A stretch of 64,000 nt of DNA from Chloroflexota bacterium (GCA_958295775.1 CATQHC010000005.1:62001-126000), one strand, 5' to 3'. Counted from the stretch's first letter, positions 28,018 through 59,077 are shown. The notes: generated by a model from the sequence alone, not told the origin. Made by a program: numbers and translations.

Positions 28018-28436
28018 TCTCCCTCGCGCTCCGGCCCAAACCGGATGAATCGTTGGCCGAGATCGGCCATTCCGCAATTCAACTAGCACCGACCTGCTTT
28101 ACACCTCACGGTGTTGCTGTGGTTCGGCAAGTGAATCATGCATTAGGAAAGAATCCTGTGCTAGCATGAGCCTAAGGATGGCGCACTCTGCCGTACCCAG
28201 CGCCTGCTTTCGGGTGCGCGGGGAGACATCAGACGGTCGCCTGAGGATTGGCCGGTTCTTCCCTCATCGTCTTTTAGGTAAGGCTCACCTCGTTCCGAGT
28301 AAGAAAGTTTCCGAATTGCAAGGCTGCAACCGTTCATCCTTCGACAGGCTCAGGACGAACGGTTGTCCTTACTACAAGTCCCGTCGGAAAACTCTCATCG
28401 CTGCCTTTGCTTCTCCGAATTGCGCTTGATCTAACC
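28018..28436. other. Intergenic region with a family D repeat
   Basis: 419 bases between co-directional genes. The only notable element is the complete family D palindrome at 28327-28365; a short open frame that crosses it (28166-28429) encodes repeat-derived residues and is not a gene. Confidence 0.55.
28327..28365. repeat. Complete family D palindromic repeat
   Basis: Outer arms CAACCGTTC and GAACGGTTG are exact reverse complements, enclosing ATCCTTCGACAGGCTCAGGAC. Other copies: 25196, 38308, 43316, 43510, 45672 and 52130. Confidence 0.8.
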
Positions 28437-49431: not shown

Positions 49432-50408
49432 TCATTCCCGCGTATGCGGGAAGGTGGCTTCACATTTCAAGCGCAACACTTGGTTGATGAATATTTCTGC
49501 TGGCGTTTGGTAGCCGAGGCACTTGCGCGGGGTGTGGTTGTAGGCTTGCACCAACTGCGCGAAGCGTTCTTCGGTTACGGTCGCCAGGTCGGTTTTGCGC
49601 GGCAGCCCGCGCCGCAGGCGCCCGATGGCGGCTTCTTCGAAGAGGACGTTTTCAATGCCGTCTCTCTGCCACGGTGAGTGGGTATCGCAGAAGAAGGTCT
49701 GCATCCCCCAGGTCAGGGAGGCGGTAGTGGCGGACGTCTGCGACGAAGTCGGCGAACTCGGTGCCGTTGTCGAAGGTGGCCGTCTGACGCCACTCTGGAG
49801 GCAAGGAAGCGAACAGGTCATGCCTGGCAGTGGCGATGAGCAAGCGCGAGTGGCGCTCGTGCAGGGTCAGCGCCGCTTGGCCGTAGGTGCGAAAGAGCAT
49901 CAGATCAACCTCCCAATGACCGGGCGTTTGGCGGGCTGCCGCCGTCTGGTGCCGTTCTGCCAGGGGACGGCGCTGGGCAATGAACGCAGCCGGGCTGCCG
50001 CCTCTGCGCCCCCGCCAGCCGCGTTTCGACTTGCCCCGCGGCAGGTAATGGCGCCAACTGCCCGTAGCTAAAGCGATAGGGGTCTCATGCGCAATGACCG
50101 GCGCACCGGCTGCTTGCGCCAGGCGACCGGCAACCTGCGCCGGCGACCAGCCGCATTGCAGGTACCCCAGCACCACCTCTCGCAACGCCGCATCCCGCTC
50201 CAGCTTGCCGCCGCGCCAACGCCTGTTCCTGGGCATATCTCGCCTGATAGCCTCGCTTCCCGGACCCATTGCGTATTACCTCCCGCGTAATGGTCGATGG
50301 CGCGCGATCCAGAGCTGTAGCAATTTTCCGCTGCGACTGCCCCGCGGCGAGAAGTCTGGCCGCTTCACACCGCTCTTCAAAGGTAAACTGACTGTAGTAT
50401 GTTCCCAT
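49432..50408 (-). pseudogene. IS30 family transposase with two frameshifts
   Basis: Reading the minus strand, ATG 50408 opens with the IS30 helix-turn-helix 'TFEERCEAARLLAAGQSQRKIATALDRAPSTITREV', then the frame shifts near 50260-50280 ('ALARRQ' to 'KLERDAALREVVLGYLQCGWSPAQVAGRL'). The DDE core follows with 'TPGHWEVDLM' and 'TFDNGTEFADF', and a second shift near 49720 leads to 'FFCDTHSPWQRDGIENV' and 'YNHTPRKCLGYQTPAEIF'. All three acidic residues survive in the pieces, but no single frame encodes the protein, so the element is inactive unless the shifts are sequencing errors. Confidence 0.85.
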
Positions 50409-51259: not shown

Positions 51260-51733
51260 TCAAGTGAGATGCTCAACTTCAACAGCGCCCCATTGCCCGT
51301 TGAAGTACTCCGCCACCAACCGGCGGTGACAATGGTCCGGCTCGTGCTCGCTGCACAGCAGGCAACTGTTTTCAATGGTCGCTCTTAGTCTCTTCGTGAT
51401 GCGTATTCCACCAGTGGGTCGGATTCCGTCCGCAAGGATGCGCCGTTCGTGCAAAAGGGAGCGGAAAGTGCGTTCGTAAGTTGCCCAGTCACAATCTCCA
51501 TTGCGATAGGCCTCCAGCAATTCCTTAGTGGGCGCGAGGTCCGGCGCATGGATATACTGCATCCGGCAGATTCTCTTCAGAAGATACGGCAGGTCGTCGC
51601 CATGCGCAAAACGCGCCAATTGCGATGCGTTGTTCAGCCGCACGTCTATTAGGCGTTTCGCACCAGAATCCCGCAGTAAGCCAAAGAATTCCGCGGCCGA
51701 CTTCTTAGTAAAGCCGATGGTGTATATTTTCAA
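51260..51733 (-). CDS. DUF488 family protein, copy 2
   Basis: A 157-residue soluble protein. 'KIYTIGFTKKSAAEFFGLLRDSGAKRLIDVRLN' is the DUF488 N-terminus and 'CLLCSEHEPDHCHRRLVAEYF' the conserved Cys/His-rich C-terminus. The R-L-N-x-x-S (instead of R-S-x-P-x-S) and the Cys set place it in the subgroup with 'DVRL'. DUF488 function is not established; the C-x-x-C-x6-C-H-R site may bind a metal or nucleotide. It lies downstream of another DUF488 gene and two dual-OB-like genes on the same strand. Confidence 0.85.
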   Translation of the reverse strand: MKIYTIGFTKKSAAEFFGLLRDSGAKRLIDVRLNNASQLARFAHGDDLPYLLKRICRMQYIHAPDLAPTKELLEAYRNGDCDWATYERTFRSLLHERRILADGIRPTGGIRITKRLRATIENSCLLCSEHEPDHCHRRLVAEYFNGQWGAVEVEHLT

Positions 51734-51838
51734 GGCGTGTACTCCAAGTCGGTACCTCTTGACGAGAGGTGTGGGCGGTCTGGGTACCCGCCCTCTATCA
51801 AGTTCAGAGCAAGACTCTTGCTATCAAGACGGAGAGTG

Positions 51839-52492
51839 TCAATCTTCGGAGGGTTCCTGCCAGCGCGCGCCCACGCGCTTCGCTTGACGCTTTACAGCGT
51901 CCGCTATCACCTCTTCATGTGAGCGGAAAAGGTCGCCAATGTAATGAATCTCAGTTTCGTCCAGCAGCCGATTCATTACGTTTACGTGACTCTCTAAACT
52001 GCCGTCGGCGTGGATATGCGCCACGGCAACGCCCTGCTTTGCCAGTGTCTGGGCGATCAATAGGGTACGGTGGCAGTCCAGTGGCTCTTTCTCGCTGCAC
52101 ATCAGGGCCAGTCGGCGTGCAGTGGAAGAAGCCGTTCGTCCTGAGCCTGTCGAAGGATGAACGGCTGCGGTGTCCAGGACGTACGCGAGGCCTTTCTCAA
52201 ATGCGGCTGTTGCCGCCAGCTTGTCATACGTGACACGCCCGTCGGCGTCGTAGCACACACGGTCCGCCGGTTGGCCGCCAAGCTCTTTGCCGCGGAAGAT
52301 GTAGCGGATGCCAGCTTCCTTCAGGGCCTCTTCCAAGTCTTCCTTATTGAAATGAGGTAAGTAGCGGCTGTAGGGCGCTGAACGCACGTCCACAACCGTG
52401 TCTACGCCGTGCATTTGCAGTAGCGTCAGAAACTCCTTTGGCTCATGATTGGAGTGGCCGATGGTGAACACCGGATGAGAAATGTTGCCCAT
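51839..52492 (-). CDS. DUF488 family protein, copy 1, with repeat insertion
   Basis: A 217-residue protein whose N-terminus 'VFTIGHSNHEPKEFLTLLQMHGVDTVVDVRSAPYSR' and C-terminal 'LALMCSEKEPLDCHRTLLIAQTLAKQGVAVAHI' are classic DUF488. Between them, residues ~110-123 ('VHPSTGSGRTASS') are encoded by a family D palindrome (52130-52166) inserted in frame; relatives have only a short linker here. The protein probably still folds because the insert lies between secondary-structure elements; this is inferred. 17 bases separate it from the upstream dual-OB-like gene. It belongs to a four-gene set. Confidence 0.88.
   Translation of the reverse strand: MGNISHPVFTIGHSNHEPKEFLTLLQMHGVDTVVDVRSAPYSRYLPHFNKEDLEEALKEAGIRYIFRGKELGGQPADRVCYDADGRVTYDKLAATAAFEKGLAYVLDTAAVHPSTGSGRTASSTARRLALMCSEKEPLDCHRTLLIAQTLAKQGVAVAHIHADGSLESHVNVMNRLLDETEIHYIGDLFRSHEEVIADAVKRQAKRVGARWQEPSED
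52130..52166. repeat. Family D palindrome inside the DUF488 coding region
   Basis: Outer arms AGCCGTTC and GAACGGCT are exact reverse complements around GTCCTGAGCCTGTCGAAGGAT. It is the same element as at 28327-28365 in the other orientation and keeps the reading frame of the host gene open. Confidence 0.85.
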
Positions 52493-52509
52493 GCTCTAAC
52501 TCTTAGGCA

Positions 52510-53193
52510 CTAATTGATTACAGCGGCAATCAACTTGTAGCAATAGCCGTCCACGAACGCTTCGGCAAGGCTAATCGTCAAGAAACACTCGCCAATTTTG
52601 TGATTTCCGATTGAAGCATATTCGCGTTCGCAGATGGGATCAGTAACCGAAAGACGATACTCCGTCTCGGCGTGATGAAAGTTCCCATAGATTTTCCTGC
52701 GAACCGTGTTGGAGAAGGGATTAGATTTGTCATACACATCAAGCACTAGATTGCTAACCTCAATGAGGCACAAGGATACTGCAAGGCACTCGGCATCTTT
52801 ACCAGACACTCTATTGTTAAGCCCATTACTGGATTCGGAGCCACCACTCCAAAGCTGCTCAACAGGGTCGACAAGCTGGCGCAGGCCCCCCACGTTCACA
52901 CGTTTCTCCAGTGTCCAGTAATACTCAGGGTTAAGCAGCCAGTTTTCTTGCTGATGGCCTCTTGGTCTCGCCTTGAATAAGGGCACATCGACTACATCGA
53001 GCACGGCTGGCTCGCTCCCATCTCTATACTGTCGTTCGCATCGATCAAGTGCCTCATCCTCGCGATTGCTAACTGGCCGCACCCAAGCACCAGTGCTGCC
53101 ATCTTTCAGCAGTTCCTTCCCCGCGATGCAGCGACCGCCTTTCTTCCATGAGTTTGCGAGGCACACGATGCGTTTGGTGATGATGTCTGCCAT
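52510..53193 (-). CDS. Dual-OB (DuOB)-like domain protein, copy 2
   Basis: A 227-residue soluble protein. 'TKRIVCLANSWKKGGRCIAGKEL' and 'GAWVRPVSNREDEALDRCERQYRDGSEPAVLDVVDVPL' are shared with the next gene upstream, followed by 'NWLLNPEYYW' and a C-terminal beta-rich half with 'YRLSVTDPICEREY' and 'GECFLTISLAEAF..GYCYKLIAAVI'. The pattern is what I recall as the dual OB-fold domain, which would suggest nucleic-acid or nucleotide binding; untested. AGGAGG eight bases before ATG 53193 sets the start. Low GC; coupled closely to the DUF488 genes. Confidence 0.75.
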   Translation of the reverse strand: MADIITKRIVCLANSWKKGGRCIAGKELLKDGSTGAWVRPVSNREDEALDRCERQYRDGSEPAVLDVVDVPLFKARPRGHQQENWLLNPEYYWTLEKRVNVGGLRQLVDPVEQLWSGGSESSNGLNNRVSGKDAECLAVSLCLIEVSNLVLDVYDKSNPFSNTVRRKIYGNFHHAETEYRLSVTDPICEREYASIGNHKIGECFLTISLAEAFVDGYCYKLIAAVIN

Positions 53194-53242
53194 GCACACG
53201 TCCTCCTCATGAATACTCCACGATATCGCTCAGAGTGATGCA

Positions 53243-54019
53243 CTAAAGCGTGAATAGTGGAATCTGCCCTGTGCTCTCGCTCGGAACGTCCGTTACACTC
53301 TGCTGTGAAGGCGAAATGATGGCGGCGATGAGTTTGTAGGCATAGCCCTTGTGCGGCCCACCGAGGCTTATGGTAAGGAAACAAGCGTCAAGCGCGTAAC
53401 TGCAACTGGGCCGCTTACCGTAAGTTTGCTCGTAGATAGCATCAGTGACGCCCAGCCGATACTCTACTCCATCATACCGGAATCGTCCCTGCACTTTATA
53501 CAGGTATCGACTCTTCAATCTTAGCTTGGATGATGTCTTAGTCGTGGACACTTCCAACCAGTCAACCCGGATGAGACGCAGCGAACTATTGAGGGCATTG
53601 GCAAGGTAAAGCGGGACTCTGTCGTTCTGTCCCTTATCGCTGCTGTGTCCGTTAGTCCAGAGCGGGCCTGCCGGGTCGGTGAACGGCTTCAGTTCATCTA
53701 GTGTAATGCGGCGCACTCTACTCCAAAAAACGTGTGGGTAGGTAGGATGCGGGTCGAGCAGCCAGTTTTCCGATTGGTACGTGTTTGGCCGCGCTTCGAG
53801 CAACGATACGTCCATAACGTCGAGCACGCGCGGCTCGCTGCGGTCCTTGTACTGCCGCTCGAATGCATTTACCGCTTCATCCCCACGGTCGCTGACGGGC
53901 CGCACCCACGCGCCGGGGCATCCCTTCGCCAAGAGTTCCTTACCGGCGATGCAGCGGTCACCCTTCTTGCGAGAGTTGGCCAGGCAGACGATACGCTTGA
54001 CAATGGAGTTCGTTGCCAT
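53243..54019 (-). CDS. Dual-OB (DuOB)-like domain protein, copy 1
   Basis: A 258-residue paralogue of the following gene, sharing 'VKRIVCLANSRKKGDRCIAGKELL', 'GAWVRPVSDRGDEAVNAFERQYKDRSEPRVLDVMDVSLLEA' and 'YRLGVTDAIYEQTY..' with 'ACFLTISLGGPHKGYAYKLIAAIISP'. It has an extra C-terminal tail ending 'GQIPLFTL', reminiscent of the short peptide ends that contact clamp-like partners (Q-x-x-L-F), a resemblance only. GGAG seven bases before ATG 54019 supports this start over the longer frame. It begins the four-gene set. Confidence 0.75.
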   Translation of the reverse strand: MATNSIVKRIVCLANSRKKGDRCIAGKELLAKGCPGAWVRPVSDRGDEAVNAFERQYKDRSEPRVLDVMDVSLLEARPNTYQSENWLLDPHPTYPHVFWSRVRRITLDELKPFTDPAGPLWTNGHSSDKGQNDRVPLYLANALNSSLRLIRVDWLEVSTTKTSSKLRLKSRYLYKVQGRFRYDGVEYRLGVTDAIYEQTYGKRPSCSYALDACFLTISLGGPHKGYAYKLIAAIISPSQQSVTDVPSESTGQIPLFTL

Positions 54020-57764: not shown

Positions 57765-57897
57765 CAGTGTTTGCTAAGTAGTGCTGCCCAGATGGCCTTC
57801 GACGCTCTGCGAGGGGTCGTCAAGGGCAACAAGAGTGACGGCTCGCATCCCCCAGAGTGAATTGTAGCCCCTCTCAGTCTTGATAGAGGAAAGGACT

Positions 57898-58632
57898 ATG
57901 ACGCAAATCGAAAAGCTAGATCGTCCGGAAGCTACTCCTTTTGCAGGAGCATATACCCTGCGCGAAACCGCAGTGCTGCTTCGGGCAACCACACCTCCCC
58001 TTAACGTCAATCTATGGCAATGGAAGCGGCGGTCCGACCAGTTTATTCAGCCTACTACCCAACACTTGTCACAGTGGATACGGCTCGGAATGGGATGGGA
58101 CAAACCGGTTAGGGTTTCCAGCAAGGACCGGGTAATTGCGTTTGCCGATCTCGTGAGACTTCGTATGATCGCTCTGCTTAGATCAAGGGGAATCGCATAC
58201 AGAGAGATCTTGGTGGCCGAGGATTACATCCGTGACCTGCGAGGTATCCGACAGCCTTTCATCACTGAAAAGATGTGGACTGCCGGTTCTGATGTCTTTG
58301 TGGCTTTTTCAGAAGAGCTAATTGCGGCGTCTCAACACGGCCAGCTTGTTTTTGAATTCATGGGAGAATTCCTCAAGCCTGCAAATCACGGTCTCATGTT
58401 TAGCTTGGATGGCTCGCCCGCGCTATGGAAGCCCTCGTCGGCAGTGCTAATCGATCCTGCAGTTCAATTCGGGGCGCCGTGCATAGCAGAAACTCGAATT
58501 GAGACTCGCTCTATCTGGTCGCTCTATCAAGCCGGTGACAGCGAAGATTCCCTGGCGGAGGCGTTCAACCTGCAAAGGAGTCAAGTAAGAGACGCAATTG
58601 AGTGGGAGCAATTGCTATCCAATGCAGGCTAG
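57898..58632 (+). CDS. DUF433-domain antitoxin-like protein with N-terminal HTH
   Basis: A 244-residue protein. The C-terminal ~60 residues ('VLIDPAVQFGAPCIAETRIETRSIWSLYQAGDSEDSLAEAFNL') are a DUF433 domain, which pairs with DUF5615 PIN-like toxins. The N-terminal half has a MerR-like winged-helix-type segment ('DLVRLRMIALLRSRGIAYREI') and is probably used for DNA binding and autorepression. ATG 57898 follows GAGGAAAGG. The stop overlaps the toxin-like gene by 11 bases, typical of toxin-antitoxin operons. GC is below that of the neighbours. Confidence 0.85.
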   Translation: MTQIEKLDRPEATPFAGAYTLRETAVLLRATTPPLNVNLWQWKRRSDQFIQPTTQHLSQWIRLGMGWDKPVRVSSKDRVIAFADLVRLRMIALLRSRGIAYREILVAEDYIRDLRGIRQPFITEKMWTAGSDVFVAFSEELIAASQHGQLVFEFMGEFLKPANHGLMFSLDGSPALWKPSSAVLIDPAVQFGAPCIAETRIETRSIWSLYQAGDSEDSLAEAFNLQRSQVRDAIEWEQLLSNAG

Positions 58633-59077
58633 TTCGGTACGTTTCTTTTTGGATGAAAACCTGCCGCCTCAGGTGGCGCGTGCCTTGGCACTAGTAGGGT
58701 ACTTAATTACACATCCACAGGATGAAGATAAGCGCGGTGAAAAAGATGCCGAACTCATATCTTGGCTGGCGCGAGAGCAATATGTTTGGATTACCAAGGA
58801 TCACGCCGCATGAAAAGTTCATGGTGATCAGCTCCTTAGAGAATGCGTTTCTGTCGTTTGGGTCAAGGGGCTAGAAGGAAAGAAGAACACGGTTAACACC
58901 CAGCAGGTGCATTTGATGTTGACCGTAGAACTACCAAAGATTATCGAGAAAATGCAGAGTGCTACTGGCCCAATGTATTTCGCGCTTTCCCTGACAAGTA
59001 ATGGTCCAAGGCTAGTAATTCTGCGTGATGAGGCAGTAGGTACAGGAAAGTCTTCGCGCGCACTTCGTAGACTATAG
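58622..59077 (+). pseudogene. DUF5615 PIN-like toxin with internal stop
   Basis: ATG 58622 starts 'MQASSVRFFLDENLPPQVARALALVG', the DUF5615 N-terminus with the first acidic residues (D-E-N), and 'WLAREQYVWITKDHAA' carries the second Asp region. A TGA at 58811-58813 follows codon 63. Beyond it the same frame stays open for another 87 codons and encodes 'KVHGDQLLRECVSVVWVKG' and a helical tail ending at TAG 59077, as in full-length family members. One base change (CGA to TGA) explains the stop. The toxin is probably inactive, whereas the antitoxin is intact. Confidence 0.8.

Follow-up and report, generated by a model that had tools for sequence, protein, structure and literature searches.

In the 64,000-nucleotide stretch of DNA from a Chloroflexota bacterium analyzed here (GCA_958295775.1, CATQHC010000005.1:62001-126000; the window), four adjoining genes at positions 51260-54019 form a cassette of PDC-M45, a candidate defense system modeled in PADLOC, in which the DuOB subunit is duplicated in tandem. 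All four open reading frames are intact and run head to tail on the minus strand in the order DuOB, DuOB, DUF488, DUF488, confirming a gene set recognized in a preliminary description of this DNA. The upstream A copy, DuOB-1 (53243..54019), encodes 258 amino acids including an extra C-terminal tail, and is followed by the downstream A copy, DuOB-2 (52510..53193), for which the ATG at 53193 was preferred over an alternative start at 53199 because AGGAGG is found at 53202-53207. Both paralogs match the Pfam family DuOB (PF22557) over the complete profile (1-210 of 210), with 195.8 bits (E 1.2e-57) and 220.7 bits (E 2.8e-65), respectively, against a gathering cut-off of 27 bits. The remaining two genes, DUF488-B (51839..52492, 217 amino acids) and DUF488-C (51260..51733, 157 amino acids), match DUF488 (PF04343) with 78 bits (E 1.2e-21) and 73.7 bits (E 2.5e-20), both above the cut-off of 22.2 bits; DUF488-C also matches DUF488-N3a (E 2.4e-11).

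The PADLOC component models identify the same four proteins, each model being the best by far. PDLC04653 (PDC-M45A) matches DuOB-1 (E 4.5e-76) and DuOB-2 (E 3.6e-78), PDLC04657 (PDC-M45B) matches DUF488-B (228 bits, E 1.8e-68) and PDLC04658 (PDC-M45C) matches DUF488-C (202 bits, E 1.1e-60), so that components A, A, B and C adjoin on one strand. PDC-M19A, which also has a DUF488-like domain, is matched only weakly, with 53.1 and 43.3 bits for the B and C proteins. Since PDC-M45 is already modeled in PADLOC, the four-gene set is not the undescribed system that it had been proposed to be. The window shares with most of its relatives both the components and the A-B-C gene order and differs from them in the two tandem A genes, which are found in 3 of the 5 cassette-bearing genomes of this genus, and in the clamp-like tail of the upstream A protein. 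As far as the descriptions in PMC12988326 and PMC11811056 go, PDC systems are unpublished candidates collected by "guilt-by-embedding", most of them without experimental validation. The low GC content attributed to the region proved to be mild: the cassette has 54.7% GC, the window as a whole 58.9%, and a lower value is found in 10% of segments of the same size. Promoter and terminator scans gave nothing better than shuffled sequences.

Conservation and spread of the cassette

A query with DuOB only, run without reference to DUF488 on a collection holding one genome per species, yielded 80 loci. The order A-B-C was found in 72 of these and B-C-A in 2, giving a complete cassette in 74 of 80, and therefore the clustering of these genes is not due to chance; five further loci carry one recognizable DUF488 gene and a single locus carries nothing recognizable. 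Across the 80 loci the genes are tightly packed, with a median of 11 bases between the A stop and the aligned B start and of -4 between the B stop and the aligned C start, the latter two usually overlapping. Among the Chloroflexota loci added by a Pfam-based search, the stronger DuOB matches were arranged as B-C-A, and several weak DuOB matches stood alone. The expectation that DuOB and DUF488 genes would be neighbors in other genomes was thus borne out nearly everywhere. DUF488 itself is widespread, being present in 6 of 14 control genomes, E. coli included.

The cassette occurs in Chloroflexota, Pseudomonadota, Acidobacteriota, Nitrospirota, Latescibacterota, Actinomycetota, Cyanobacteria and other groups, and its distribution is patchy. 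A separate Pfam-based search detected DuOB in 33 of the 301 Chloroflexota genomes examined, and it was missing even from close relatives of genomes that have it; the congener G004 has no DuOB gene. Cassettes are also carried on prophage-like contigs and on plasmids down to 4.2 kb. In isolated phage genomes, neither DuOB nor DUF488-C had a match at E 1e-5. The same gene order across many phyla, the patchy distribution and the presence on mobile elements uphold the earlier suggestion that the genes are acquired as one transferable unit. In one viral contig (L241:4308-5441), DUF488-B and DUF488-C are fused into one 377-aa protein, with the peptide QLHLF in the linker, which supports B and C working together.

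Carriage on small plasmids and prophage-like contigs would also be consistent with a module that maintains its plasmid or prophage in a manner similar to a toxin-antitoxin pair. This reading is highly improbable. The cassette comprises three conserved proteins, two with invariant enzyme sites, and no toxin fold; it is frequently found as stable chromosomal copies under purifying selection, and it is often lost between sister genomes. Within the genus, all cassette genes evolve under purifying selection, with omega values of 0.07-0.28 (0.25-0.27 for DuOB-1), compared to 0.06-0.14 for the genes encoding a neighboring VTT membrane protein and elongation factor G (EF-G).

The DuOB and DUF488 proteins

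An AlphaFold2 model of DuOB, built from 72 sequences, is a tandem oligonucleotide/oligosaccharide-binding (OB) fold with a predicted local distance difference test score (pLDDT) of 95.6. Compared along its whole length, the model is closest to double OB folds of nucleic-acid-binding proteins, namely LEF-3 (Z 6.2), the DBD-A/B domains of RPA70 (1jmc; Z 5.7, 176 residues, 4.5 A) and HIN-200 domains, for which Foldseek gives probabilities of up to 0.98. HIN-200 proteins are immune DNA sensors. Both they (IFI16, AIM2-like, p202, p204) and RPA70 DBD-A/B contain two OB folds in tandem, as predicted for DuOB; they are, however, eukaryotic and share no sequence similarity with DuOB, as no PDB sequence match was found. 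The PDB sequence search with DuOB and DUF488 returned nothing useful, FokI at E 0.27 being noise, and profile searches placed the DuOB proteins in no well-known enzyme family. The predicted fold fits a nucleic-acid-binding role for DuOB, and to that extent agrees with the nucleic-acid sensing originally suggested for this gene set. Moreover, the KRIVCLANS..GRCIAGKE segment of DuOB is unusually conserved, and a preferred ligand is therefore possible.

The extra upstream DuOB gene is found in the window and in genomes G005 and G002. Phylogenetic analysis groups these extra copies in one clade, with support of 100/99 for the window and G005 and 85/95 once G002 is added. DuOB-2 of the window, on the other hand, is 52-53% identical to the genus copies and its synonymous sites are saturated (pS 0.74-0.80), whereas the B, C, VTT and EF-G genes of the window differ from those of the genus at pS 0.49-0.67; it is placed outside the genus clade in the tree, with weak branch support. 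Saturation of its synonymous sites suggests that DuOB-2 is probably a copy replaced from elsewhere. A contig of Archangium violaceum (L047) has a second DuOB-like open reading frame on the opposite strand, adjoining an A-B-C cassette, and duplication of DuOB may thus not be unique to the genus of the window.

Near its C-terminus, the tail of DuOB-1 carries a peptide, QIPLF (53252..53266, minus strand), that resembles sliding-clamp-binding peptides and could have such a function. The tail reads QIPLFTL in the window and in G005 and QPSLFGG in G002, so that all three extra DuOB copies of the genus carry a QxxLF-type tail, which none of the other DuOB tails listed does. Motifs of the form Q[LM]x[LM]F are also found in the tails of seven DUF488-B proteins, against a background expectation of 0.34 (Poisson P about 7e-8, a value that ignores relatedness of the sequences). 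Examples are QLSLF, QMTLF and QLTMF in the DUF488-B tails of loci L108, L109, L237, L270, L277 and L279, mainly in B-C-A cassettes. As a general feature of DUF488-B, a clamp motif was rejected: in A-B-C cassettes xDLF or xDMF is conserved and the glutamine is mostly missing (present in 14 of 76). The clamp-like partner once proposed for the IPLFTL tail is thus weakly favored by the recurrence of such peptides in the extra DuOB proteins and in some other cassettes, and it does not extend to the DUF488-B proteins of ordinary A-B-C cassettes.

Homology between the two DUF488 proteins is clear (hhalign 98.6%, E 1.4e-15), and they share the motif C-x-E-x5-C-H-R, which showed no exception in alignments of 76 sequences for each protein. 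In DUF488-B it reads C-S-E-K-E-P-L-D-C-H-R (C132-R142; 52067..52099, minus strand), with C132, E134, C140, H141 and R142 invariant, and in DUF488-C it reads C-S-E-H-E-P-D-H-C-H-R (C127-R137; 51323..51355, minus strand), with C127, E129, C135, H136 and R137 invariant. Such invariance suggests that both are cysteine enzymes. The model of DUF488-C (pLDDT 93.9) is Rossmann-like, with C127 at the end of a strand and H136 at the start of a helix. A strand end before a helix is the position of the nucleophile in enzymes similar to protein tyrosine phosphatases (PTP), and PTP-fold phosphatases of the rhodanese-phosphatase superfamily, such as SsoPTP, PRL1 and KAP, likewise combine a Rossmann-like sheet with a conserved cysteine at this position. 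They differ from DUF488 in that DUF488 has the longer loop C-x-E-x5-C-H-R in place of C-x5-R, and a second invariant cysteine. The phosphate-binding loop C-x5-R is absent from DUF488-C, where position 6 after C127 is D133, and because of this longer loop membership in the classical phosphatases is not claimed. Structural matches of the DUF488-C model are in effect tied between tetrapyrrole methylases (Z 7.2) and the phosphatases SsoPTP (Z 6.7) and PRL1 (Z 6.5).

Just before the strand that carries the active site, DUF488-B of the window contains, in frame, a palindrome similar to repetitive extragenic palindromic elements, GTTCATCCTTCGACAGGCTCAGGACGAACG (52132..52164, minus strand). It has 23 copies in the genome at up to 3 mismatches, compared to none for the reversed control, with another copy in the window at about 28332-28361. 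The palindrome also occurs in G001, and G002 and G005 have a longer version of it; since it is absent in G003, it is not needed for DUF488-B function.

A frequent form of the cassette on prophage-like contigs and small plasmids consists of DuOB, DUF488-C and an mSLOG:DUF4326 protein, the last of which was matched by none of the PADLOC models. This form was found at L110, L124, L125, L210, L214, L215, L218-L220, L222, L225-L232, L236, L238 and L240 and at the plasmid loci L244, L245, L246, L248 and L292 (plasmids down to 4.2 kb). It has the same DuOB and DUF488-C proteins as PDC-M45 and differs from it in that mSLOG:DUF4326 fills the DUF488-B slot. DUF488-B and DUF4326 occurred together in none of about 20 variant and at least 8 A-B-C viral loci, and the two therefore seem to be alternatives for one slot. 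DUF4326 has been assigned to the rhodanese-phosphatase superfamily and is predicted to act on the ribose-linked phosphates of ADP-ribose (PMC9503650). A direct profile comparison of DUF488 with DUF4326 (PF14216) was not significant (hhalign P 0.05 for C and 0.79 for B), with the motif in register for C only, and for this reason kinship between the two families is not claimed. What is new here is the replacement of the first DUF488 by mSLOG:DUF4326, together with the extra DuOB with its clamp-like tail and the replaced-looking DuOB-2.

This substitution, together with the resemblance of DUF488-C to PTP-fold phosphatases, raises the possibility that the cassette processes nucleotide derivatives, such as ADP-ribose adducts: DuOB would recognize an adduct on nucleic acid and DUF488 or DUF4326 would remove or trim it, countering ADP-ribosylation by a phage or a signal made by one. 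Set against this are the lack of significance in the profile comparison, the equally good scores of tetrapyrrole methylases and the missing phosphatase loop; in addition, no gene for an ADP-ribosyltransferase (ART), Macro or NADAR protein was a recurrent neighbor in the flanks examined. On balance, such a role appears improbable.

Genes flanking the cassette

In other genomes the cassette is repeatedly accompanied by defense genes. Five loci encode HmaB, a DUF1156 methylase, directly upstream of it; three of the five also encode a DUF499/HEPN_Swt1-type protein directly downstream, which places the cassette inside an Hma-type locus. An Allochromatium plasmid carries it beside cas1, csx16 and csm6 of a type III CRISPR system, and an Agrobacterium plasmid beside a HORMA gene and the cyclase gene of a cyclic oligonucleotide-based antiphage signaling system (CBASS). 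When PADLOC was applied to 133 flanking proteins it gave matches to 151 families, and for a control set of 107 arbitrary Chloroflexota proteins it gave matches to 39; this comparison is rough, as it counts families instead of proteins and its control set comes from a single phylum. In ten loci (L036, L038, L044, L048, L055, L063, L070, L088, L092 and L098) a Schlafen/AlbA_2-type protein is encoded close upstream and might be an added component of the cassette.

The window presents a different setting. A gene for a VTT/DedA membrane protein (PF09335; 50607..51242, minus strand) begins 17 bases downstream of the cassette and had been considered as a possible end of the gene set; it is better regarded as an adjacent resident gene. 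The VTT protein is 84-91% identical across the genus, compared to about 50-80% for the cassette proteins. The cassette lies between EF-G/cupin genes and the VTT gene in G001, G002 and G003, as it does in the window; in G007 the best VTT relative and the cassette are on separate contigs, and in G004, where the cassette is absent, the VTT gene adjoins a DUF4928 restriction enzyme and a Vsr-C5-methyltransferase. VTT was therefore rejected as a fifth part of the cassette. In G004 it retains a DnaJ-like neighbor, as in G002, and a different contig holds EF-G and cupin; the region has thus been rearranged rather than cleanly exchanged, a clean empty site was not obtained, and the restriction-modification system beside VTT there is only suggestive.

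Farther downstream, positions 49432-50408 hold a transposase remnant that begins with an HTH_38 match at 50088-50408 and continues in other frames without a Pfam match; it looks like a frameshifted IS30-type element. On the other side of the cassette, at 57880-58813 on the plus strand, a gene for a DUF433 protein is followed by one for a short DUF5615/PIN_10 protein (both assigned by Pfam), and these look like a toxin-antitoxin-type pair.

Possible role of the cassette

Taking these contexts together, the most likely role of the cassette is in defense, as its genomic surroundings suggest. We give about an even chance to a reading in which it protects against phages or plasmids, with DuOB binding the invading nucleic acid and directing the two cysteine enzymes to it; the binding and recruitment steps are derived from the predicted folds and the invariant residues. 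In this scheme, DuOB, with two OB folds in tandem like those of RPA70 or HIN-200, would bind invading or replicating nucleic acid and bring both DUF488 proteins to it. The invariant cysteine of the C-x-E-x5-C-H-R motif would then attack either this nucleic acid or some nucleotide that it gives rise to, in a reaction that needs no hydrolysis of nucleoside triphosphates and no nuclease domain, and in some versions the clamp-like peptides would tie the complex to the replication machinery. Turnover is faster in the DuOB position than in the enzymes, and for this reason the extra DuOB in the genus of the window would widen recognition. The most detailed form of this proposal is an immune cassette in which a HIN-200-like tandem-OB protein recruits its cysteine-dependent enzymes (the DUF488 pair, or DUF488 and mSLOG:DUF4326) to the replication clamp on phage nucleic acid, where they would modify that nucleic acid or nucleotides bound to it by direct chemistry, no nuclease or ATPase being involved; in all these particulars it would be a rather long shot.

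Several observations weigh against a defense role. Anti-phage activity of PDC-M45 is not on record, and a literature search found no paper naming the system; searches for DuOB and mSLOG returned unrelated words only. The DuOB/DUF488 complex and its substrate are proposals, and the fold matches are modest (Z < 8), indicating a likeness of fold that does not imply function. PADLOC matches arise in random Chloroflexota genes too, as the 39 families matched by the control show. Many of the flanking genes, mainly in Chloroflexota, are metabolic, and those of the window are housekeeping genes and the insertion sequence remnant, with no defense island. These flanks would also suit a mobile module for repair or modification of nucleic acid that has no part in immunity. 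In such a module, DuOB would recognize DNA or RNA that is damaged or modified, repair or modification would be carried out by the two DUF488 proteins, and the advantage to the host would be unrelated to phages. Tandem OB folds and cysteine enzymes fit repair as well as they fit defense. Patchiness, embedding in Hma loci, CBASS and type III CRISPR neighbors and carriage on very small plasmids are, however, typical of defense cargo, and repair is accordingly regarded here as the less likely explanation, though one to be taken seriously.

To our knowledge, DUF488 is a common family without known activity, and DuOB has been named for its fold only. Although the cassette is not new as a genomic find, being already listed in a database, it brings these two families together in a mobile unit whose active sites are conserved, and the presence of mSLOG:DUF4326 in place of DUF488-B represents a natural alternative form that hints at the chemistry involved. 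The small plasmid-borne versions make a laboratory test easy. If the cassette does defend its hosts, its chemistry would be new among defense systems, since a nuclease and an ATPase are both missing from it.

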